Shown here piece after piece: positions 38,250 to 49,900 of a DNA stretch of 64,000 bases; the first letter of the stretch is position 1, and every line of letters begins with the position of its first letter. A program made the position numbers and the translations under genes. The stretch is from Nocardioides salarius. GTDB taxonomy: Bacteria > Actinomycetota > Actinomycetes > Propionibacteriales > Nocardioidaceae. Under the pieces are notes generated by a model. The model saw nothing but the letters and a program-made list of their open reading frames with translations, was not told the DNA's origin and searched no databases. Location: assembly GCF_016907435.1 (NCBI RefSeq), contig NZ_JAFBBZ010000001.1:1302001-1366000 (forward strand), read 5' to 3'.

Positions 38250-41200
38250 TCAGTCGAAGAGCGCGCGCACGTCGGCGGCGTCGACGACGCTGCCCAGGGC
38301 GCCGTCACCGTCGACGACCTGGGAGAACAGCGCGGCCTTGCGCTCCTTCAGCGCCACCACCTTCTCCTCGATCGTGTCCCGCGAGACCAGCCGGTAGACC
38401 ATCACCGGTCGGGTCTGGCCGATCCGGTGGACCCGGTCGACGGCCTGCGCCTCGACGGCCGGGTTCCACCAGGGGTCGAGCACGAAGACGTAGTCGGCCT
38501 CGGTGAGGGTGAGCCCGACCCCGCCGGCCTTGAGGCTGATCAGGAACGCCGTGCTGTCGCCCTCGCGGAACCCCTCGACCACCTCGGCACGCTTGCGGGT
38601 GCGCCCGTCGAGGTAGTGGTGGCTCACGCCCTCGGCGTCGAGCCGGGCGCGTACGCGGCGCAGGAAGCCGGTGAACTGGCTGAAGACGAGGGCGCGGTGG
38701 CCCTCGGCGGCCAGCTCGAGGAGGTGGTCGACCAGCACGTCGACCTTCGCCGAGCCGATGGCCTCGTGCTCGGCCTCGACCAGCGCCGGGTCGAGGCTGA
38801 GCTGGCGCAGCCGGGTGAGGGCGCTGAGGATCGCCACCCGGTTGCGGTCGAAGTCGTCCACGAGACCGAGGATCTTCTGCCGCTCGCGGGCCAGGTGGGT
38901 GTCGTAGATCCTGCGGTGCCGGGCGCCGAGGTCGACCTGCAGCAGCTGCTCCTGCTTGGGCGGCAGGTCGGCGGCGACCAGCTCCTTGGTGCGGCGCAGC
39001 AGGAAGGGGCGCAGCCGCTGCTGGAAGCGGGCCAGCGCGGCGCCGTCCCCCTCCTTCTCGACCGGTCGCACCACGTGGTCGACGAAGCCCTTGGCCGTCG
39101 GGTAGAGACCCGGCGCCACGAGGGCCAGCAGCGACCACAGCTCCATCAGCCGGTTCTCGAACGGCGTGCCGGTGACCGCGAGCCGGAACGGCGCGTCGAT
39201 GCGGCGGGCGGCCTGGTGGGTCTTGGCGAGGTGGTTCTTCACGTGCTGGGCCTCGTCGAGGACGAGCCCGCCCCAGGGCAGGGCGGCGTACTCCTCGATG
39301 TCGAGACGCAGCAGCGTGTACGTCGTCACCACGACGTCGGCGCCGTCGGCGACCTCGGCCACCGGGGTGCCGAGCTTGCGGGCCGAGGCGGTGACGGTGC
39401 GCACCACCAGTCCCGGGGTGTGCTGCGCGGCCTCGAGCGCCCAGTTGGCCACGACGCTGGTGGGCGCCACGACCAGGAACGGCGCGGCGCCGCCGGCGCG
39501 GGCGCGGGCGACGGCCGCGAGCACCTGGAGGGTCTTGCCGAGGCCCATGTCGTCGGCCAGGATGCCGCCGAGGCCGTGGTCCTGCAGGAAGGCCAGCCAC
39601 CGGAACCCGTCGTGCTGGTAGTGCCGCAGCGTGGAGACCACGCCCTCGGGCTCGGGGCTGGGCAGGTCCGTCAGGTCGCGCAGCGCGTGGGCGCGGCGCA
39701 CCCACTCCTGGGCGTGGGCGGGCAGCGTGTCGGTCTCGGCCAGGTCGCCGACCGCCGCCCACAGGCCCAGGTCGTGACCGCCCAGGCCGATCCGGTCGTC
39801 GCGCGTGGGCTCGCGCACCTCGGCGGCGGCCGCGACCAGGCTGCGCAGGCTCTCGAGCTCGGGAGCGGTGGCGTCGACGTGCAGCCCGCTGGGCAGCACG
39901 ATGCGCTCCTCGCCGAGCGTGAGCGCCTCCAGCACCGAGGACAGCGGGATCTGCTCGCCGTCGACGCTGACGCTGACGCACAGGTCGAGCCAGTCGGTGG
40001 CTCCGCCGGCGTCTGCCGCGTCGTCGGCCTCGGCCGGGGCGTCGGCGGACGCGGGACCGAGCGTGATCTCGACCGGGCCGGTGGCCGGACGGAAGTCAGG
40101 ACGCTCGACCTCCTCCACCTCGAGCCCGGCCTCCCGCAGGCGCGCCAGCTCGTCGGCGAGCTCGAGCACGCCGCTGGTCGGTACGTCGCGGTCGGCCGCC
40201 GGCGCGTCGGCGTCCAGGACGCCGTCGGAGGTCAGGCGGGCGAGCTCGGCCCGCTCGGCGGGGCGGTCGCGGACGCCGTCGAGGCGGTCGGCGGAGCCGG
40301 CGGCGCACGCCAGGTCGGTGTCGCCGACCCGGTAGCGCCACTGCCAGCGCAGCGCGGCCGCCGGGGTGCGGTCCCACTCGACGAGGAGGACCAGGCGCGG
40401 GGCCGGTGGGGCCGGGACGGTGATCGAGTCGTCGCTCGAGGTGACCGGCAGGTGCCGCGTGAGCCGGGGCAGGCGGGTGGTGACGAAGGCGTCGAGGTGC
40501 TCGGGCGGGACGGCGGTGTCGCCGGCGTTGACGAGCCTGGCCAGCGCGGGAGGGATCGGCGCCGCGAGGGGTGCCAGCAGGGCGGTGGTGTCGCGGGTGG
40601 TGGCCGTGGGCACCCGGTCGAGCAGCACCACGCCGTGGGCCTCGTCCCCGACCAGCAGCAGCTGGTCGGCCGGCCACCACCGGTCGGCGTACCGGACCCC
40701 GAAGCGGAGGCTGGCGGCGCCGGGCCCCGCCTCGTCGCGCAGCACGTCGGCGACGACCTCGACGGGCTCGTCGACCAGCTGCACGTCGGCCAGGCCCGAG
40801 CCGGGCAGCAGCGCCACGCCGGCATCGCGTGCCTGGCGCAGGCGGTGCCACAGCTGGGGTCCGAAGTCGGAGAGCGGCGGCAGGTCGGTGATGTTCCAGT
40901 ACGCCGCCATCCCCATCTGGGCGCGCAGCCGGCACACGGAGGCGACGTGGGCGGGGTCGTGACGGGTGCGCCCGAGGTGGCCGCCGTGGGGGGTGAAGTC
41001 CTTCCAGGCCGCGCCGCCGCGGACCCACCGCCCGCTCGCGCCGCGGCGTACCGGGCGCATCCGGACCACCGGCGGGGCCAGGCCGGTGAAGCCACCGTGG
41101 CGCGGCAGGTGCAGGTCGAGCAGGAGCGCGAGGGCGTCCTGCCCGGCCTCCCCGCCCCGGGAGGCCTCCAGGTCGCGCAGCGCCGTGTCGAGCGCGCCGG

Positions 41201-41579
41201 CCCAGCCGGCGGAGCCGTCGTCGGTGGGAGTGCCGGGATCGGGGTGGTCGGTCGTCAGCGACCGGCCCAGGCAGAGCAGCAGCGCCGCGCCGTGCTTGCA
41301 CTCCCAGCCGACCGGGCAGGAGCAGTCCGCGGTGACGACGGCCCGACCCCGGTCGAGCTCGATGGAGACCGACGTGCGGTAGAGCCGAGCACCGCTTCCG
41401 GCGACCTCACCATCGACCGCGAGGAACTCGCTGTCGACCACGTCGACGTCGAGCCGGAGCACCGACCCGTCCGAGGCGTACGCGCGCGCCCGCCCGACGG
41501 CTGCCGGGTCGTAGACGGAGGCCAGCCCCTCGGCGCTCAGCCAGGGCGCGAAGGCCTCGACGGCGGCGGGGGTGCGCAC
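38250..41579 (-). CDS. SWIM zinc-finger SNF2-family helicase/ATPase
   Basis: 1109 residues. A SWIM zinc-binding motif is at Cys86, Cys88, Cys94 and His96 (CSCPVGWECKHG). A large middle region of about 450 residues follows, then a SNF2 ATPase: DDMGLGKTLQ (about 674), DEAQHVKN box (about 772), VTGTPFENRLMELWSLL, then the helicase C domain ending with VDRVHRIGQTRPVMVYRL. Such proteins translocate on double-stranded DNA and remodel DNA-protein complexes. Bacterial SNF2-SWIM proteins occur both alone and within defence islands. The stop is 72 bp from the WXG operon start on the same strand. Confidence 0.92.
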   Translation of the reverse strand: MRTPAAVEAFAPWLSAEGLASVYDPAAVGRARAYASDGSVLRLDVDVVDSEFLAVDGEVAGSGARLYRTSVSIELDRGRAVVTADCSCPVGWECKHGAALLLCLGRSLTTDHPDPGTPTDDGSAGWAGALDTALRDLEASRGGEAGQDALALLLDLHLPRHGGFTGLAPPVVRMRPVRRGASGRWVRGGAAWKDFTPHGGHLGRTRHDPAHVASVCRLRAQMGMAAYWNITDLPPLSDFGPQLWHRLRQARDAGVALLPGSGLADVQLVDEPVEVVADVLRDEAGPGAASLRFGVRYADRWWPADQLLLVGDEAHGVVLLDRVPTATTRDTTALLAPLAAPIPPALARLVNAGDTAVPPEHLDAFVTTRLPRLTRHLPVTSSDDSITVPAPPAPRLVLLVEWDRTPAAALRWQWRYRVGDTDLACAAGSADRLDGVRDRPAERAELARLTSDGVLDADAPAADRDVPTSGVLELADELARLREAGLEVEEVERPDFRPATGPVEITLGPASADAPAEADDAADAGGATDWLDLCVSVSVDGEQIPLSSVLEALTLGEERIVLPSGLHVDATAPELESLRSLVAAAAEVREPTRDDRIGLGGHDLGLWAAVGDLAETDTLPAHAQEWVRRAHALRDLTDLPSPEPEGVVSTLRHYQHDGFRWLAFLQDHGLGGILADDMGLGKTLQVLAAVARARAGGAAPFLVVAPTSVVANWALEAAQHTPGLVVRTVTASARKLGTPVAEVADGADVVVTTYTLLRLDIEEYAALPWGGLVLDEAQHVKNHLAKTHQAARRIDAPFRLAVTGTPFENRLMELWSLLALVAPGLYPTAKGFVDHVVRPVEKEGDGAALARFQQRLRPFLLRRTKELVAADLPPKQEQLLQVDLGARHRRIYDTHLARERQKILGLVDDFDRNRVAILSALTRLRQLSLDPALVEAEHEAIGSAKVDVLVDHLLELAAEGHRALVFSQFTGFLRRVRARLDAEGVSHHYLDGRTRKRAEVVEGFREGDSTAFLISLKAGGVGLTLTEADYVFVLDPWWNPAVEAQAVDRVHRIGQTRPVMVYRLVSRDTIEEKVVALKERKAALFSQVVDGDGALGSVVDAADVRALFD

Positions 41580-41642
41580 TGCGTCAGTCTGCCCAAACCC
41601 GCATGGTTGCAGCGAACCCGGGGCGTCGCGGGCGGGTCGTGC

Positions 41643-42053
41643 TCATCGGGGCGCGGGTGGCTGGAAGGCGTGGAAGTCGTCGATCCACCGACGCACGATC
41701 GTGCCTGCAGGCAGAGGCTCGGCGATCTCGTGGATCAGATCGACGGTCTCGGCCACGAGCTCGTGGTGCAGCTCCGCCGTCTCCGGGACGAGCCACCCCT
41801 GGTCGGTGAGGCTGGTGGTCACTGCGAGGCGCAGCTGGGTCTCGGTGATGTCCAGTTCTGCCACCTCCGCGGTCGTCGTCGCGCGATGGCTGGTCAGCCC
41901 ACCGAAGCCGCGCCCGCAGCCGCACCCCCTCTCCGGGTACAACCGGTCCGTGTCGCAGACCATCGTGATCCAGAGCAGCTCTCCGGGGACGCAGAAGCTG
42001 TAGTCCCCCTCCACGTCGCCCTGTGTCCTGCTCGTTGCCACCAGTACCTTCAT
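41643..42053 (-). CDS. Hypothetical protein with Cys-rich turn
   Basis: 136 residues from ATG 42053 with an AGGAGG site. The N-terminus MKVLVATSRTQGDVEGDYSF and the CGCGRGFGGL loop define it, but I do not recognise a named family with certainty. The second half is helical and acidic. The loop with cysteines may bind a metal. It lies between the SNF2 and the TauE/SafE genes and shares their strand. Confidence 0.6.
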   Translation of the reverse strand: MKVLVATSRTQGDVEGDYSFCVPGELLWITMVCDTDRLYPERGCGCGRGFGGLTSHRATTTAEVAELDITETQLRLAVTTSLTDQGWLVPETAELHHELVAETVDLIHEIAEPLPAGTIVRRWIDDFHAFQPPAPR

Positions 42054-42139
42054 GTCGGCCTCCTGCTCAGCACGCTAGAGGCGGGCGCCGACACCTGCTC
42101 ACCGGTGACCACGGGCCTGTGGACGAGGCCCAGCAGGGC

Positions 42140-43042
42140 TCAGACGAGCGCGGGCTCGGCCACGGGGGTCGAGGCGGCGAGACGCTCGGCGCGCTCGCGG
42201 CGCCACGCGGCCCGGGCGATGCGCCCGACGAGGAGCAGCCAGCCCACCATCAGGGCCAGGTCGAGCGCCAGCGGGAGGTCGGCGAAGGCCGCGAGGACGA
42301 CGACGCTGTTGACCAGGATGATCAGTCCGCCGACCATCACGCCCATCGGGGCGTGCGGCAGCCGGCCGGCCAGGCGGGCGGCGATGGGCGCCACGATGAC
42401 GCCGCCGAGGACCAGGCCGAGCACCGGAAGCCACGGGATGTCCTGGTGCGCCGCGCCGGTGATGAAGCCGAGCGAGACCGAGACGGCCACGGCGAACTCG
42501 GCGGCGTTGGTGGTGCCGACGACCTTGCGGGGCTCGTGGCTGGTGACGGTCATCAGGCTGGGCGTGACGACCGGCCCCCAGCCACCACCGCCGGTGGCGT
42601 CGACGAAGCCGCCGAGCAGCCCGATCGGGGCGAGCCAGCGCGCGGTGTGACCCGACTTGGGCGTCGGGATGATGCGCAGGCCGAAGCCGAAGCGCAGCAG
42701 GATCACCGCGCCGAAGAACAGCAGCAGCGCCGCCATCCCGCTCTTGGCGGCCGCCAGGCTGATCGAGGTCAGCACCACGGCACCGAGGAAGCCGCCGATC
42801 GCGCCCGGGATCGCCACCCGGATGAGCACGGCCTTGTCGACGTTGCCGACGTGCCAGTGGGAGAGCCCCGAGATCAGCGTCGTGGGCAGCTTGGCGGCGT
42901 GCGTCGCCGCGCTGGCGGTAGCGGGAGCGACCCCGAGCGCCAGGAGCACGGTGGCCGAGGTGACCCCGAAGCCCATCCCCAGCGTCCCGTCGACGAGCTG
43001 GGCCAAACCGCCGGCGAGGGCGAAGGCTGCGACCAACCACAT
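42140..43042 (-). CDS. TauE/SafE (TSUP) family permease
   Basis: 300 residues, about eight helices. The two conserved repeats are clear: LAQLVDGTLGMGFGVTSATVL near the N-terminus and GFVDATGGGGWGPVVTPSL in the middle, both with the diagnostic glycine-rich motif. These permeases export sulfite, sulfoacetate or other small organosulfur anions, or take up sulfate/thiosulfate-type compounds. The upstream AT-rich promoter region with direct repeats (43074-43099) suggests regulated expression. Confidence 0.9.
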   Translation of the reverse strand: MWLVAAFALAGGLAQLVDGTLGMGFGVTSATVLLALGVAPATASAATHAAKLPTTLISGLSHWHVGNVDKAVLIRVAIPGAIGGFLGAVVLTSISLAAAKSGMAALLLFFGAVILLRFGFGLRIIPTPKSGHTARWLAPIGLLGGFVDATGGGGWGPVVTPSLMTVTSHEPRKVVGTTNAAEFAVAVSVSLGFITGAAHQDIPWLPVLGLVLGGVIVAPIAARLAGRLPHAPMGVMVGGLIILVNSVVVLAAFADLPLALDLALMVGWLLLVGRIARAAWRRERAERLAASTPVAEPALV

Positions 43043-43099: not shown

Positions 43100-43201
43100 G
43101 AGATTACTGCATTGCTTGAATCGGCCCGGCGCGTCGCGACCGCTCGCAGGTCACGTCGAGGCGCCCGCGGGGCTGTCCGCGGCGTCGGAGACGCTCATCG
43201 G

Positions 43202-43315
43202 ATGGAGACCTGGGTGTGTGACTTCTGCGGGCAGCGTGGCCGGAACCGGCCGGGCGAGCTGGTCGAGCAGGTGCTCTGCCCGACCTGCGGGGAGCCGGTG
43301 ACGCGTGGCGGCTGA
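43202..43315 (+). CDS. Small CxxC zinc-ribbon protein
   Basis: 37 residues from ATG 43202: METWVCDFCGQRG near the start and LCPTCGEPV at the end, two CxxC pairs about 20 residues apart, the spacing of a zinc ribbon. It is divergent from the TauE/SafE gene and converges on the NERD-domain gene (2-bp gap). No ribosome binding site is obvious. The pattern is unlikely by chance, but its function is unknown. Confidence 0.5.
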   Translation: METWVCDFCGQRGRNRPGELVEQVLCPTCGEPVTRGG

Positions 43316-43317
43316 GG

Positions 43318-44277
43318 TCAGCGCGCGGGCTGCCAGGTCGTCGAGAGGCGTGCGGCGGCGTACACCTGCTTCACCTGGTCGTCGCTGAGGACGACCTCCT
43401 GCTTGCGCAGCCAGCGGTGCAGCTGCATCCGCGGCACGACCACCACGTCCTGCGGGGCCGCCTTGACGGTGATCTCGGAGGCGTTCACCGGGACGACCAC
43501 TCCCCTCACCTCGACGGGCCAACCGCAGGCGGCCGTCAGCAGGCGTGCGGCGCGGCTCGCCTCGTGCCGTGAGTTCCGCACGTACGGGACCCGCTGGCCG
43601 TTGACCATCATCGTGTCCCCGCCGATCCAGATCTTCGCCTTCGGGTGGTGCTTGGCGTTGAGCGTGAAGACCCCGCCTGGGCCGACGACGACGTGGTCGA
43701 TGTCCGAGCCGCGCTCACCGACCGGGACGGCGTGCAGGAACTTCCACCGAGGGTCCTTGCCGGCGAGCTTGGCGAGTCGCGCCGCCACCATCTCCTCACC
43801 GTCCGCACCGATGCGCCACGCTCGCTCGTCGTTGTGCACGCGCAGCACCCTGGCAAGAATCGTGCGGACCGGCGCCGCCTCCTTGGCGGCCCGCGCCTCG
43901 GCCCGCGCAGCCGCGCCGGCGCGTACGTCGGCCAGGTCGGTCGGGGCGGCCTCGGCGAGCACGGGAGCCGCGACAGCTGCGTCCTCGACCGGCTCGACGA
44001 TGGCCGTAACCGGCTCCGGCGGGGCCGCGCCCTGATCCGCTCGCCACCTCGTCAGAGCCGCACGCAGCTCCTTTTTCGACTCCTCCGTCTCGGGAGAGCC
44101 GACGTCTGCCGCAAGGTCCCAGTGACCGAGTGCGGTGCCGTCCGCGCGGGCGACGTACAGCCGGTCGTGCCCGAAGCGTCGCCACCGGCGGAACTCCCAG
44201 GCTGCCGGGCTGGTGGCGTCGGCTGGTGCGGTTACAGGTTCACTCACGCCTGGGATGTCGGTCATGGTGGCGCTCAT
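43318..44277 (-). CDS. NERD-domain protein (nuclease-related)
   Basis: 319 residues from ATG 44277 (ATG 44265 is an alternative). The NERD core is at about 165-270: GADGEEMVAARL, then GSDIDHVVVGPGGVFTLNAKHH, with the acidic, Asp and Lys positions of a restriction-type nuclease fold (Asp in SDIDHV, Lys in NAKHH). An N-terminal domain of about 60 residues (WEFRRWRRFGHDRLYV) and an Ala/Glu-rich linker precede it. NERD proteins are found in plasmids and defence loci; whether this one cuts DNA is not known. Confidence 0.82.
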   Translation of the reverse strand: MSATMTDIPGVSEPVTAPADATSPAAWEFRRWRRFGHDRLYVARADGTALGHWDLAADVGSPETEESKKELRAALTRWRADQGAAPPEPVTAIVEPVEDAAVAAPVLAEAAPTDLADVRAGAAARAEARAAKEAAPVRTILARVLRVHNDERAWRIGADGEEMVAARLAKLAGKDPRWKFLHAVPVGERGSDIDHVVVGPGGVFTLNAKHHPKAKIWIGGDTMMVNGQRVPYVRNSRHEASRAARLLTAACGWPVEVRGVVVPVNASEITVKAAPQDVVVVPRMQLHRWLRKQEVVLSDDQVKQVYAAARLSTTWQPAR

Positions 44278-44801
44278 CTTTACCCACTGGGACGGCAGAG
44301 TGTGGAGGGTTGGATGAACCTGTTGCGTTCGGGGCTCCACGCTTTCTCATCGCCACGCGGCGGGGCCGTCCCGTTCAGGAGGAGGCGCGGGCCATCTGCG
44401 CCACGGCTTCCCGCGCCAGACCGGAACCTTTCGTGCTCGGCGGCGGGCGTCGCACGGCGCCGCGCGCCTCCTCGAGGTCGTGACCCAGCAGCACCGAGCA
44501 AGCGACGGCCACGCTGGGCGTGCGCTACTGAGCCGCCATGCAGTGCAGGTGCACTGATTGCCCTCGGCGTACAGCCCTCGCACGGCGCCGGCCGTGTCGT
44601 CCAGGACGAAGTCCAGGTGCGTGCCGGCGACGGGGTCCTGGGGGTCCATCGGGCCGACCTAGCGGCCTACCTCGAAGTCTCTATACACGGGACCGGACGA
44701 ACCCGGCAGATGCGCTTCGAAGGGATGCCCGGAGCCGAGACGGCCGCCCTCAGTCGCTCGGCAAGCGGCGCAGCGTCAGATTCCCGTGTTTAGCTAGGCT
44801 C
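44278..44801. other. 524-bp region without an intact gene
   Basis: The space between the NERD and HNH genes. It contains the decayed tyrosine phosphatase (44375-44600). From about 44660 the DNA becomes less GC-rich, leading into the HNH gene. Frames crossing it are Arg/Pro-rich artefacts. No terminator or RNA gene was seen. Confidence 0.6.
44375..44600 (-). pseudogene. Remnant of a protein-tyrosine (dual-specificity) phosphatase gene
   Basis: On the minus strand, one frame reads a phosphatase-like stretch: SVHLHCMAAQ, then a TAG codon (44527-44525), then RTPSVAVACSVLLGHDLEEA, ending at TGA 44375. Phosphatases of this type have HCxxAQSRTP as the active-site P-loop, with Ser where the TAG now stands. 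A single TCG to TAG change would explain it. The part upstream of about 44600 is not recognisable. The gene therefore appears truncated and inactivated. Confidence 0.5.
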
Positions 44802-45701
44802 GTGACTGAACCTGACGGTTTCCGCCGAGCAGCGATGCAATGGCTCGAAAAGCGCCCTGATTCTCGGGTCGACTACTCCTGGGTTTCGAGCTTCGAGTAC
44901 GAGGGCTCTCGCATTCCGCTCATGGACCGGCAGCGAGGCATTCGCAAACCCGCCGGTTTCGAGGCGGCGCTCGCCATTCGCACTACGTTCACTGCTGCGG
45001 GCAAACTGCCCCCCTACGTAGACGCGATCGGAGACGATGGTCTGCAACGCTACAAATATCGTGGAGACGACCCCCAGCATCCCGAGAATATTGCTCTACG
45101 TAACGCCATGAAGATGGGGCTCCCGATCATTTGGTTTGTCGGAGTCGCTCCCGGCAGCTACGAGCCCATCTTCCCTGTCTGGGTTGTCGGGGACGACCCA
45201 GAGGCGCTGCAGTTCGCTCTGGCCGTCGATGAAGGCCAAAGATTCCTCCGGCCAGACTTTGGGCTGGACGAGGACACCCGCCGCTGGGCCGAGGGTCGAA
45301 CCAAGCAGCGACTTCACCAGCGCGTATTTCGATCCCAGGTCCTGCTGGCATACAACGGTCGCTGCGCGATCTGTAAGATCCGGCATGCCGAACTATTGGA
45401 CGCCGCCCATATTGTCGCCGACGGCCGACCCAACGGCCATCCCGTGGTGCCCAACGGGTTAAGTTTGTGCAAAATTCATCACGCCGCGTTCGACCATCAG
45501 TTACTCGGCATCCGTCCCGATCTGACGATTCACATCCGACAAGACGTGCTTGAAGAAGTCGATGGGTGGATGCTCAAGGGGGGCATCCAGGGCGTCCATG
45601 ACACTCGACTTGCGATCCTGCCGCGCAACCGCCTGGAACACCCCGACGAGCACAGACTCGAGGAGCGCTACGTCGAATTCCTCGCCGCCCCGGTCGCCTG
45701 A
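44802..45701 (+). CDS. HNH endonuclease (restriction-type)
   Basis: 299 residues from GTG 44802. The N-terminal two thirds (about 45-145: GIRKPAGFEAALAIRT, RYKYRGDDPQHPENIALR, LPIIWFVGVAPG, FPVWVVGDDP) belong to the domain found in many restriction-like HNH proteins. The C-terminal HNH part has Cys188/Cys191, LLDAAHI with His203, Asn218 and Cys223/His227, so the metal site is intact. Codon use is visibly less GC-rich than that of the neighbours (codons such as AAT, ATT, TTA occur). This suggests recent transfer. It may be a methylation-dependent (type IV-like) restriction enzyme. Confidence 0.85.
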   Translation: MTEPDGFRRAAMQWLEKRPDSRVDYSWVSSFEYEGSRIPLMDRQRGIRKPAGFEAALAIRTTFTAAGKLPPYVDAIGDDGLQRYKYRGDDPQHPENIALRNAMKMGLPIIWFVGVAPGSYEPIFPVWVVGDDPEALQFALAVDEGQRFLRPDFGLDEDTRRWAEGRTKQRLHQRVFRSQVLLAYNGRCAICKIRHAELLDAAHIVADGRPNGHPVVPNGLSLCKIHHAAFDHQLLGIRPDLTIHIRQDVLEEVDGWMLKGGIQGVHDTRLAILPRNRLEHPDEHRLEERYVEFLAAPVA

Positions 45702-45812
45702 ACTGCAACCACTAGGTCCTCTGAGGCGCGTCGGCTCCGGCGTCGATGCCACAATCATTCCCTTCACTCTGCGCGCCGATTCAGCACTCCCTTTTCCGTC
45801 ACCACGTGGGGC

Positions 45813-46691
45813 TCACTGCCGCAGCCGCGCGAGACTGACGTCAGACCGTCGGGACGCGGTGCGGAGCCGGTGGCAGTTTGCACAGACCACATCGCACTTG
45901 CCGAGCTCGGTGATCAGTTCCTCGGCCGGACACCCGAAGTTGATCAGGGTGGCGATGTTGTGAAGCTTCTGGCCGCGGGCATGGTCCCAGTCCAAGCCCC
46001 TTGCCCACCCTGCCCACCCGCAGTCGGCGCACCCCAGTCTTAACTTCAGCCGGTCGTTGAAGTCCTGGCGGTCGAGGCGGGACTGCCAGGAAGCAGGAAG
46101 CCTCTGCGCGGTCCGCCATTTGTTCGGCCTGCGGTTCATGGTCATGAGGCGGTGACACCGAGCGCAGCGCGGATCGCACTTCGCCAGCTCGGCGCGGAGC
46201 CGCTCCAGGGCGACGCACATCTGGACCATGCGGCTGAGGTTGCCAACCTTGCTCGTGCCCGGCCGATGGTCTGGCTCAATGGCCCGGATGTCGCTGTAGC
46301 CACAATCGACACAGCCCTGCGCCTTCCAGGTATCGACCACGGCTTGGAGCCGCGCCCGTGCCTTGCGGAGGTCCTCCTGCCCCTTGACCTTGCGGCGCGC
46401 ACGGGCAGCGGCCAACCCCCTCTGCCGGTAGTCCGGGTTGGCCCACCGCCGGCGGTTGCTTTCCTTGGTCTTCGCCCGACCTTCCGGGGTCTGACGCGCG
46501 GCGGCCTGACATTTGCGGCACCGGGTGGACAACCCGCTGAAACGGCGCGTCTCCCTGTTGAAGTCCACCGCTGGTCGTTCCTGCTGACAGCCCGGGCACC
46601 AGATCATGCTCGTGGGCAGGATCGCGGCCGCTGGTGGTCGGCGCCGACGGGGCGCCTTCGTCGAAGTCGGGGCAGGCTCGTGCTGGGCCAT
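45813..46691 (-). CDS. Zinc-ribbon protein with two tandem HNH-like modules
   Basis: 292 residues. A zinc ribbon lies at Cys32, Cys35, Cys58 and Cys61. A basic helix (about 70-125) follows. Then come two related modules: Cys127/Cys130, Asp141-His142, Cys176/Cys179-His180; and Cys221/Cys224, Asp236-His237, Cys270/Cys273-His274. Each has the order CxxCG, then EPDHRPG or DWDHARG, then an AELAKCD or ELGKCD helix and CARCHR or CANCHR. This is the layout of small HNH nucleases. Both DH pairs and all zinc ligands are kept. It converges with the HNH endonuclease gene. Confidence 0.75.
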   Translation of the reverse strand: MAQHEPAPTSTKAPRRRRPPAAAILPTSMIWCPGCQQERPAVDFNRETRRFSGLSTRCRKCQAAARQTPEGRAKTKESNRRRWANPDYRQRGLAAARARRKVKGQEDLRKARARLQAVVDTWKAQGCVDCGYSDIRAIEPDHRPGTSKVGNLSRMVQMCVALERLRAELAKCDPRCARCHRLMTMNRRPNKWRTAQRLPASWQSRLDRQDFNDRLKLRLGCADCGWAGWARGLDWDHARGQKLHNIATLINFGCPAEELITELGKCDVVCANCHRLRTASRRSDVSLARLRQ

Positions 46692-46771: not shown

Positions 46772-46807
46772 CGACTGCCCCGACACCGTGAGGTGCCGGG
46801 GCAGTCG
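46772..46807 (-). terminator. Terminator of nrdJ
   Basis: A long stem: CGACTGCCCCG pairs perfectly with its reverse complement at the other end, then CACC with GGTG after one mismatch, around a GTGA loop. It lies 13 bp past the nrdJ stop on the minus strand, before the start of the next gene. Confidence 0.85.
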
Positions 46808-46819
46808 TACGGCGTCGGA

Positions 46820-49741
46820 TCAGCTGCAGCCGGAGGTGCTGCCGCAGCCCTCACAGACGTAGCAGGAGCCGGCGGGGCGCATCTTGGTGCCGCAGGTGAA
46901 GCAGAGCGGCGAGTCGACGGCGGTGCCGGTGATCTTCTCCATCAGCTCGGCCGAGGTGTGGGCACCGGAGGTGTCGCGCTGGGCCGGGACCTCGCGCTGG
47001 TTGCTGCCGTCGGTGTCGTGGCTGGTTTCGAGACGGGCCTGGCGGCCCTCCTCAACCACCGTCTCGCCGTCGGCCTCGGGCGCCGGCGGGGTGACCAGCT
47101 CGGCGGCGCCGCCGGTCTCCTCGACGGGCTCGTAGGAGCCGGTCTCGAGGTAGCGCTGGCGCTCGTCGGCCGAGTAGATCGACAGGGCCTCGCGCTCCTC
47201 GAAGGGCAGGTAGTCCAGGGCCAGGCGGCGGAAGATGTAGTCCATGATCGACTGCGCCATCCGCACGTCGGCGTCGTCGGTGAGACCGGCGGGCTCGAAG
47301 CGCAGGTTGGTGAACTTCGAGACGTAGGTCTCCAGCGGGACGCCGTACTGCAGGCCGATGCTGACCGCGATCGAGAAGGCGTCCATCACGCCGGCCAGGG
47401 TGGAGCCCTGCTTGCCGAGCTTGAGGAAGATCTCGCCGAGCTCGCCGTCCTCGTGGGCGCCCGAGGTCATGTAGCCCTCGGCGCCACCGACGGTGAACGA
47501 GGTGGTGCGCGAGACCCGCGACTTCGGCAGGCGCTTGCGGGTGGGGGCGTAGACGACCTTCTCCACAACCTTGGTCTCCACCGCGGAGTCCGCCGCCTTG
47601 TTGGAGTCGGTGCCCTTGTTCTCGCCCTTGCCCGACGACATCGGCTGGCCGACCTTGCACGAGTCGCGGTAGCAGGCGGTCGCCTTCAGACCGAGCTTCC
47701 AGGACTGGAAGTAGATGTCCTCGATCTCCTCGACCGTGGCGGTCTCGGGGAGGTTAACGGTCTTGGAGATCGCACCGCTCAGGAACGGCTGGCAGGCCGC
47801 CATCATCCGCACGTGGCCCATCGGGGCCAGCGCGCGTGCACCCATGGCGGTGTCGAAGACCTCGTAGTGCTCGGTCTTGAGGCCGGGAGCGTCGATGACG
47901 TGGCCGTGCTCGGCGATGTGGGCGACGATCGCCTCGATCGACTCGGGCTGGTAGCCCATCTTCTTCAGCGCCCGCGGGATCGTCTGGTTGACGATCTGCA
48001 TCGAACCGCCACCGACGAGCTTCTTGAACTTCACCAGCGAGAAGTCCGGCTCGATGCCGGTGGTGTCGCAGTCCATCATGAAGCCGATGGTGCCGGTCGG
48101 CGCGAGCACCGAGGCCTGGGCGTTGCGGAAGCCGTTGGTCTCGCCGAGCTTCTGCACGTCGGCCCACGCGGCGGTGGCCAGCTTGTGCACCTGCGAGTCG
48201 GCGATGTGCAGGGTGCGCACGGTGTCGTTGGCGGCCTGGTGCTTGCGCATCACGCGCTTGTGGGCGTCGGCGTTGCGGGCGTAGCCGGTGTAGGGGCCCA
48301 CCACGCCGGCCAGCTGGGCCGAGCGCTTGTAGGAGACGCCGGTCATCAGCGAGGTGATGGTCGCAGCCATCGATCGGCCGCCGTCGGAGTCGTAGCCCAG
48401 GCCCATCGCCATCAGCAGCGCGCCGAGGTTGGCGTAGCCGATGCCGAGCTGGCGGTAGTCGCGGGTGGTCTGGCCGATCGGCTCGGTCGGGAAGTCGGCG
48501 AAGCAGATGGAGATGTCCATCGCGGTGATGATCACCTCGACGGCCTTCGCGAACAGCTCGGCGTCGAAGGTGTCGTCGTCCTTGAGGAACTTCAGCAGGT
48601 TCAGCGACGCCAGGTTGCACGAGGAGTTGTCGAGGCTCATGTACTCCGAGCACGGGTTCGACGCGGTGATGCGCCCCGTCTCGGGGTTGGTGTGCCAGTC
48701 GTTGATCGTGTCGTCGTACTGCAGACCCGGGTCGGCGCACTCCCACGCGGCGGTGGAGATCTTGCGGAACAGGTCGCGGGCGTCGACGGTCTCGATGACC
48801 TCGCCGGTGCCGCGCGAGCGCAGACCGAACTCGGTGCCCTCCTCGACCGCACGCATGAACTCGTCGGAGACGCGCACCGAGTTGTTGGCGTTCTGGTACT
48901 GCACCGAGGTGATGTCCTCGCCGCCCAGGTCCATGTCGAAGCCGGCGTCGCGCAGCGCGCGGATCTTGTGCTCCTCGCGCGCCTTGGTGGCGACGAACTC
49001 CTCGATGTCGGGGTGGTCGACGTCGAGCACGACCATCTTGGCCGCACGACGCGTCGCGCCACCCGACTTGATGGTGCCGGCCGAGGCGTCGGCGCCGCGC
49101 ATGAAGGAGACCGGGCCCGAGGCGGTGCCGCCCGAGGAGAGCAGCTCCTTCGACGAGCGGATGCGCGAGAGGTTCAGGCCGGCGCCGGAGCCGCCCTTGA
49201 AGATGAACCCCTCCTCCTTGTACCAGTTGAGGATCGAGTCCATGGAGTCGTCGACCGAGAGGATGAAGCAGGCCGAGACCTGCTGCGGCGAGGGCGTGCC
49301 GACGTTGAACCAGACCGGGGAGTTGAAGGAGAAGTACTGGTTGACCAGCAGCCAGGTCAGCTCGTGCTCGAAGACCTCGGCGTCGGCCTTGGTCGCGAAG
49401 TAGCCGTGGTCGACACCGCCCTTGACGTACTGGGAGACCACGCGGTCGATGAGCTGCTTGAGGCTGCGCTCGCGGGCGTCGGTGCCGACCGCGCCGCGGA
49501 AGTACTTGGTGGTGACGATGGTCGAGGCGTTGACCGACCAGGTGGCGGGGAACTCCACGCCGCGCTGCTCGAAGACGGTGGCGCCGGTCTTCCAGTTGGT
49601 CTGGACGACGTCGCGGCTCTCCCAGGTCAGCTCGTCGTAGGGGTGCACCCCCTCGGTGCTGAAGACGCGCTCCATCGTCAGGCCCTTGCCCTGGCCTTTG
49701 GTCGCTGCGTCGGCGCCTGCGCCGCTCACCGTCTCGGTCAT
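46820..49741 (-). CDS. nrdJ: Vitamin B12-dependent ribonucleoside-diphosphate reductase (class II)
   Basis: Reduces ribonucleotides to deoxyribonucleotides with adenosylcobalamin as radical source, independently of oxygen. 973 residues from ATG 49741, supported by an AGAGGAG site. Class II features are present: NSPVWFNVG, SACFILSVDDSMDSI, the GGSGAGLNLSRIR loop, NPCSEY with the active-site Cys, and APTGTIGFMMDCDTTG. The last 27 residues (CFTCGTKMRPAGSCYVCEGC) are a zinc-ribbon/redox-Cys tail. It lies 203 bp after nrdR in the same direction; a hairpin lies between them. Confidence 0.96.
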   Translation of the reverse strand: MTETVSGAGADAATKGQGKGLTMERVFSTEGVHPYDELTWESRDVVQTNWKTGATVFEQRGVEFPATWSVNASTIVTTKYFRGAVGTDARERSLKQLIDRVVSQYVKGGVDHGYFATKADAEVFEHELTWLLVNQYFSFNSPVWFNVGTPSPQQVSACFILSVDDSMDSILNWYKEEGFIFKGGSGAGLNLSRIRSSKELLSSGGTASGPVSFMRGADASAGTIKSGGATRRAAKMVVLDVDHPDIEEFVATKAREEHKIRALRDAGFDMDLGGEDITSVQYQNANNSVRVSDEFMRAVEEGTEFGLRSRGTGEVIETVDARDLFRKISTAAWECADPGLQYDDTINDWHTNPETGRITASNPCSEYMSLDNSSCNLASLNLLKFLKDDDTFDAELFAKAVEVIITAMDISICFADFPTEPIGQTTRDYRQLGIGYANLGALLMAMGLGYDSDGGRSMAATITSLMTGVSYKRSAQLAGVVGPYTGYARNADAHKRVMRKHQAANDTVRTLHIADSQVHKLATAAWADVQKLGETNGFRNAQASVLAPTGTIGFMMDCDTTGIEPDFSLVKFKKLVGGGSMQIVNQTIPRALKKMGYQPESIEAIVAHIAEHGHVIDAPGLKTEHYEVFDTAMGARALAPMGHVRMMAACQPFLSGAISKTVNLPETATVEEIEDIYFQSWKLGLKATACYRDSCKVGQPMSSGKGENKGTDSNKAADSAVETKVVEKVVYAPTRKRLPKSRVSRTTSFTVGGAEGYMTSGAHEDGELGEIFLKLGKQGSTLAGVMDAFSIAVSIGLQYGVPLETYVSKFTNLRFEPAGLTDDADVRMAQSIMDYIFRRLALDYLPFEEREALSIYSADERQRYLETGSYEPVEETGGAAELVTPPAPEADGETVVEEGRQARLETSHDTDGSNQREVPAQRDTSGAHTSAELMEKITGTAVDSPLCFTCGTKMRPAGSCYVCEGCGSTSGCS

Positions 49742-49900
49742 GCCGTGCTCCTCTGTGTCCCGGTCTAAGGGGTGCTCGTCTGTGGCTGTGCTGCGGGTTG
49801 CTGCTGGTCTGCTGTGGGTCTGCTGCTGGGTCGTGCTGGCGGTGTCCATGGTCGCTGCGACCACCGACATCGACTGATGCGGTGCGGGAAGAGGTGGTGC

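Follow-up and report, generated by a model that had tools for sequence, protein, structure and literature searches.

The window analysed here, a stretch of 64,000 nucleotides from the complete 4.47-Mb genome of Nocardioides salarius, carries nrdJ, the gene of the B12-dependent ribonucleotide reductase, and a group of nuclease genes next to its 3′ end. One of them encodes a predicted restriction endonuclease composed of an SRA domain and an HNH domain (hereafter called “SRA-HNH”). It lies in a foreign segment within the 3′ flank of nrdJ, a site whose content swaps between species (hereafter called the “slot”). The features are as follows, with window positions and strand.

46820–49870, minus strand: nrdJ, B12-dependent ribonucleotide reductase (NF005122, 1597 bits), the conserved anchor of the slot
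44802–45701, plus strand: SRA-HNH endonuclease gene (predicted Type IV, TagI-like; Pfam PF13391, HNH_2), with a GTG start
43115–45843, no strand: foreign segment, at both sides of which the DNA homology to the sister species G230 ends
45813–46691, minus strand: double-HNH phage-type nuclease with an N-terminal zinc ribbon (phrog_2255 “HNH endonuclease”, E 4e-39, in two stretches)
46775–46804, minus strand: hairpin just past the nrdJ stop codon, located from aligned 3′ flanks; terminator-like, a putative role
44347–44649, minus strand: C-terminal remnant of an ADP-ribosylglycohydrolase/phosphatase-like gene (at the DNA level, 73% identical to the end of the gene that is intact in G111, locus L037)
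43318–44340, minus strand: NERD-domain protein (PF08378, E 3e-12)
43202–43315, plus strand: zinc-ribbon open reading frame (ORF) of 37 amino acids, with two CxxC motifs and only sub-threshold Pfam matches
38250–43042, minus strand: TauE, DUF7715 and SWIM-SNF2 genes, in the same order in G230
38250–41579, minus strand: SWIM-SNF2 gene

The original prediction had described a candidate defence island beside nrdJ, and all of the genes that it listed (zinc ribbon, NERD, decayed phosphatase, HNH, double-HNH and SNF2) are found where it had placed them. The drop in base composition that it took as a sign of transfer is confirmed as well. The dip spans 44.5–46 kb, and the SRA-HNH gene has a GC content of 0.608 and a GC content at third codon positions (GC3) of 0.690, as compared to a GC content of 0.734 for the window and a GC3 of 0.963 for nrdJ. 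The anchor itself is found in 184 of 186 Nocardioides, and a hairpin 3′ of nrdJ exists in relatives too, where the aligned flanks show no conservation of its sequence.

What does the gene at 44802–45701 encode? The GTG at 44802 was chosen as the likeliest start by comparison with homologues. While Pfam detects only the HNH portion, the protein has a profile match to TagI, and TagI (6ghs) is the sole strong Foldseek match, over the full length (E 1e-5), to an AlphaFold model built from 6 sequences, with a mean predicted local distance difference test (pLDDT) score of 65. In VIA-align comparisons, the N-terminal 150 residues of the model superpose on SRA domains, with Z scores of 8.8 for the SUVH5 SRA domain (root-mean-square deviation 3.9, 122 residues), 7.5 for TagI and 5.6 for the C-terminal SRA domain of SauUSI. 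SUVH6, KRYPTONITE, ScoMcrA, MspJI, LpnPI and AspBHI are also ranked, and the top 21 matches are all modified-cytosine readers or nucleases based on them, with VcaM4I aligned via its HNH part. The layout is an SRA domain at about residues 6–153, followed by an HNH domain at about residues 170–250. The catalytic residues of TagI, His229, Asn245, His254 and Asp258 (PMC6212794), are matched by H203, N218, H227 and D231, which are invariant across eight homologues. The zinc site consists of C188, C191, C223 and H226, and this CxxC plus CxxH arrangement is given for other TagI-family members (PMC6212794). Moreover, Y72, D74 and Y84 are invariant among the homologues and seem to stand at the places expected for SRA pocket residues.

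We predict that the product is an SRA-HNH modification-dependent (Type IV) restriction endonuclease of the TagI type. Like TagI and ScoA3IV, it is a single actinobacterial protein of about 300 amino acids with an N-terminal SRA domain and a C-terminal HNH domain carrying the TagI catalytic set. It differs from TagI in its sequence, only about 20–25% identical, in its zinc site, CxxC/CxxH instead of CxxC/CxxD, and in that its activity is predicted. A phosphorothioate-dependent (SBD-HNH) endonuclease is rejected, as NF045808 matches only the HNH portion, with 52.6 bits against a cut-off of 180. The enzyme presumably depends on 5-methylcytosine (5mC) and acts in phage defence. An active 5mC-dependent nuclease would require a host without a cytosine-C5 methylase. 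Consistently, a six-frame PF00145 search found no such methylase in the host genome, so that the host's own DNA should be safe from the enzyme.

Next, we consider the sister species G373 and G230, whose nrdJ genes are 97% and 96% identical to that of the window, respectively. The window and G230 are collinear from nrdR to the double-HNH gene, nrdJ included, and the collinearity resumes at 43114 for the TauE, DUF7715 and SNF2 genes, save for one additional gene between TauE and DUF7715. Between these two blocks, G230 has a SauUSI-like gene and an ORF of 123 amino acids instead of window positions 43115–45843, which comprise the SRA-HNH gene, the phosphatase remnant and the NERD and zinc-ribbon genes. 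In G373, the homology to the window breaks off with the stop codon of nrdJ. It is found again only within a diverged double-HNH gene, which is followed by what appears, from its sequence, to be a different NERD protein, and then by a SauUSI-like gene. The SauUSI-like gene of the sister species matches SauUSI (7clg) with E 9e-84 and PADLOC mREase_IV with 1127 bits, and no remnant of it was found in the window. SauUSI, too, recognises 5mC with an SRA domain (PMC7913695). Therefore, the latest change in this lineage was a trade between two predicted 5mC-dependent enzymes, in one or the other direction. SauUSI itself (Type IV, 5mC-dependent, PLD-helicase-SRA) resembles the window enzyme in its SRA reader, and its relative occupies the same slot in the sister species; it differs in using another nuclease and in its ATP dependence, and the SauUSI-like gene is absent from the window genome. 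The 123-aa ORF (L133, 5663–6034) adjoins the SauUSI-like gene of G230, and homologous-looking ORFs (cluster c16) occur in G085 (L050), L053 and L057. The G085 copy adjoins another SauUSI-like gene, and the ORF is possibly an accessory protein.

The link to nrdJ extends beyond this group. Among the 157 Nocardioides genomes with nrdJ coordinates, 30 of 37 SauUSI-like genes, 11 of 30 SRA-HNH genes and 23 of 90 C5-methylase places lie within the distance limit of 35 kb from nrdJ. By chance, about 0.8% would fall into a 35-kb stretch on one side, given a genome of 4.5 Mb, and many-contig drafts can only hide links. All 64 nrdJ-linked genes are downstream and none upstream, 36 of them at less than 2 kb. 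The orientation is likewise biased, with 41 of 41 nrdJ-linked restriction genes convergent with nrdJ and 18 of 23 methylases co-directional with it. NERD genes show no link to nrdJ in the same test (3/22 nearby). In two further genera of the family, SRA-HNH genes also lie near nrdJ, at 63 bp in G097, 66 bp in G074 and 138 bp in G086, as well as in G109, G021 and G049. In G303 (L137, 5413–8757), an 1114-aa HKD plus SNF2 protein that matches the PADLOC candidate C3a139 adjoins SRA-HNH and nrdJ.

The content of the slot was further compared among 40 family members sampled regardless of content. None of the 40 shares the gene set of the window downstream of nrdJ, and the flanks hold instead cytosine-C5 methylases, Vsr, DISARM-like DrmD/DrmMI and SauUSI-like enzymes. 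The synteny of the set across the family, which would have spoken for vertical core genes, is thus absent, and G230 has a SauUSI-like gene in place of 43115–45843. At E ≤ 1e-15, the first three genes downstream of nrdJ (120 genes) match 201 PADLOC families, as compared to 17 for 117 genes at randomly chosen positions of these genomes; PADLOC families often overlap on one protein, and the protein-level excess is smaller, roughly 16 versus 5. Genes of the relatives were called on the basis of GC3; any low-GC genes overlooked in this way would lower, not raise, the enrichment. In Nocardioidaceae, the region 3′ of nrdJ is a general defence hotspot with a strong 5mC bias. The original prediction missed the key pattern, a slot that holds different genes from one species to another, with a bias towards enzymes that read or write 5mC.

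The slot is rapidly refilled. Mapped onto the nrdJ tree, its state shows 22 changes, a scatter equal to that of shuffled labels. On the SRA-HNH protein tree, proximity to nrdJ requires 7 changes, of which well-supported branches force at least 5. Therefore, the enzymes arrived repeatedly. Readers and writers of 5mC tend to avoid each other: a SauUSI-like gene never shares the slot with a methylase or with SRA-HNH. Genome-wide, SauUSI-like genes co-occur with methylases in 12 cases against 20.3 expected (p 0.005) and with SRA-HNH in 2 against 6.9 (p 0.018), by Fisher tests in which relatedness is ignored. An exception is G385 (L151, 1730–7851), where an SRA-HNH gene 75% identical to that of the window lies far from nrdJ and adjoins DrmB-like, PLD and C5-methylase (DISARM-like) genes and a uracil-DNA-glycosylase-like gene.

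We propose that nrdJ of Nocardioidaceae is flanked at its 3′ end by a defence slot, which holds an SRA-HNH enzyme from a foreign segment in the window and SauUSI-like enzymes, methylases or other defence genes elsewhere; we hold this to be very probable. A foreign segment of 2.7 kb would have brought the SRA-HNH gene into the slot together with the NERD and zinc-ribbon ORFs. With its SRA domain, the enzyme would then flip a modified base (5-methyl- or 5-hydroxymethylcytosine) out of invading phage or plasmid DNA, and it would cut close by with its HNH dimer. Both base flipping and cleavage by the HNH dimer were measured for TagI (PMC6212794). In other species, the slot would hold a SauUSI-like 5mC-dependent enzyme, the opposite activity (C5 methyltransferases, some with Vsr), or DISARM-like and other defence genes. 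The swaps probably proceed via homologous recombination, with the conserved nrdJ as one arm.

Several observations weigh against this proposal. The structural model of SRA-HNH reaches a mean pLDDT of only 65, and the tests on reader/writer avoidance take no account of relatedness. SRA-HNH and a methylase stand together in the slot of G267 and G096. Defence genes unrelated to 5mC are also present: CBASS-like E1-E2 plus phospholipase, ThsB, HEC-06 and DISARM-like genes, the first three scattered among loci that have neither a 5mC-type nor a DISARM-like gene. Twelve Nocardioides SRA-HNH genes of one clade occupy other loci, and hence the enzyme does not need the slot. Finally, no tRNA, att-like or flanking repeat, or integrase pattern was found at the slot, which leaves the exchange without such an explanation; integration based on a tRNA or on repeats accordingly appears unlikely. 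The 12 genes just mentioned (for example, L097–L102 and L118–L123) form a tight clade at a chromosomal place other than nrdJ, which may be a second slot.

How specific is the slot for 5mC? It has nearly an even chance of being an ordinary general defence hotspot, in which the 5mC bias would merely follow from the abundance of Type IV enzymes and orphan methylases as single-gene systems. Single genes are easily mobile, and CBASS-, Thoeris- and DISARM-like and candidate systems are also present; however, 30 of the 37 SauUSI-like copies are gathered at this single site, and readers and writers exclude each other beyond what a simple hotspot would give. More tentatively, the flank may be an epigenetic-conflict slot, where recombination swaps 5mC-destroying cassettes (SauUSI-like, SRA-HNH) and 5mC-making ones (C5 methylases with Vsr), and where lineages flip polarity and rarely keep both. 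In such a slot, the double-HNH nuclease may promote the swaps. It is unlikely that this nuclease is a homing-type enzyme that cuts near the 3′ end of nrdJ and drives the exchange. It belongs to a phage HNH family, lies directly downstream of nrdJ with an adjoining Type IV gene in all four genomes that carry it, and has a replaced allele in G373 (55% identity, against 97% for nrdJ), but those are just 4 of 186 species, the slot is active in many more, and the target site is only putative.

The HNH, NERD, zinc-ribbon and double-HNH genes are adjacent in the window, and in G438, G385 and G368, three further Nocardioides, SRA-HNH and NERD are separated by 0.4–9 kb, as one cooperating multi-gene defence system would have it. 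Such a system is nevertheless very improbable: SRA-HNH lies 61–163 bp from nrdJ without the others in G303, G449, G435, G097, G074 and G086, NERD is mostly elsewhere, and the gene order and strand vary. The original suggestion of a single unnamed system, with NERD, HNH and SNF2 as its parts, is therefore not supported, as there is no conserved co-occurrence, only 3 of 22 NERD genes are near nrdJ, and SRA-HNH has no constant partner. Vertical core genes without any island can be practically dismissed. The TauE, DUF7715 and SNF2 genes are indeed collinear in G230, but 43115–45843 is replaced there, which refutes a core origin for this part, and its low GC3 and scattered distribution point the same way. 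What stands of the island is a horizontally exchanged defence locus beside nrdJ; what does not is its unity as one set, given the collinearity of the three genes.

The double-HNH protein consists of two halves that are 41% identical (E 2e-15), with the nuclease motif intact in both copies. In each of the four Nocardioides, the gene directly follows nrdJ on the same strand and is followed by a convergent Type IV gene, SauUSI-like in three cases and SRA-HNH in one. The copy of G373 is 61% identical to that of the distant G359 and 55% to that of the window, in conflict with the nrdJ relationship, indicating that the double-HNH gene was replaced. A pattern scan of viral contigs found no relatives, and phage records yield local matches of 30–47%. 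A role of this gene in moving the slot content is possible.

Among the other neighbours, the NERD protein is probably a co-resident of the island, and NERD genes are only occasionally near an SRA-HNH gene. The 37-aa zinc-ribbon ORF is a putative gene, judged by its two CxxC motifs. The decayed phosphatase is real: its remnant of about 300 bp matches the end of a gene, intact in G111, whose domains appear to be ADP-ribosylglycohydrolase- and dual-specificity-phosphatase-like. The double-HNH gene is common to the window and G230, as are the TauE, DUF7715 and SWIM-SNF2 genes, whose shared order places these three outside the foreign segment. The SNF2 gene, which had been counted among the defence genes, is rejected as a Zorya, DISARM or Dpd helicase, with 210 bits against an NCBIfam cut-off of 1500 for ZorD, 65 against 950 for DrmD and 43 against 500 for DpdE; its PADLOC DpdE match of 1026 bits looks over-broad. 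The DUF7715 protein (41643–42053; PF24831, E 3e-43) lies between the TauE and SNF2 genes in the window and is also present in G230. Probable inteins occur in nrdJ of G012, G034, G052, G003 and G001, and none in that of the window. In those nrdJ frames, the alignment to the window protein is interrupted close to its residues 200, 408 or 705, mostly within open frames of 1300–1570 aa.

The core-gene hotspots cDHS1 and cDHS2 of Pseudomonas aeruginosa (PMC10250203) and the islands of E. coli (PMC10121019) likewise have a fixed core-gene anchor and fast-changing defence content. The nrdJ slot differs from them in its clade and anchor, its strong 5mC reader/writer bias and its restriction to one side of the anchor. 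A literature search that covered few subscription journals found no published description of a defence locus linked to nrdJ. In the DpnI/DpnII cassettes of pneumococcus, methylated-DNA restriction and methylation systems alternate at one locus. The nrdJ slot differs in involving 5mC instead of 6mA, and many enzyme families rather than one pair.

nrdJ thereby provides a fixed core-gene landmark in actinobacteria beside which to look for defence genes. The finding also bears on the transformability of these soil bacteria, for which Dcm-minus DNA should be used. Moreover, the slot offers a natural series of swaps between enzymes that attack 5mC and enzymes that create it, which makes the switch between opposite methylation strategies testable at one locus.

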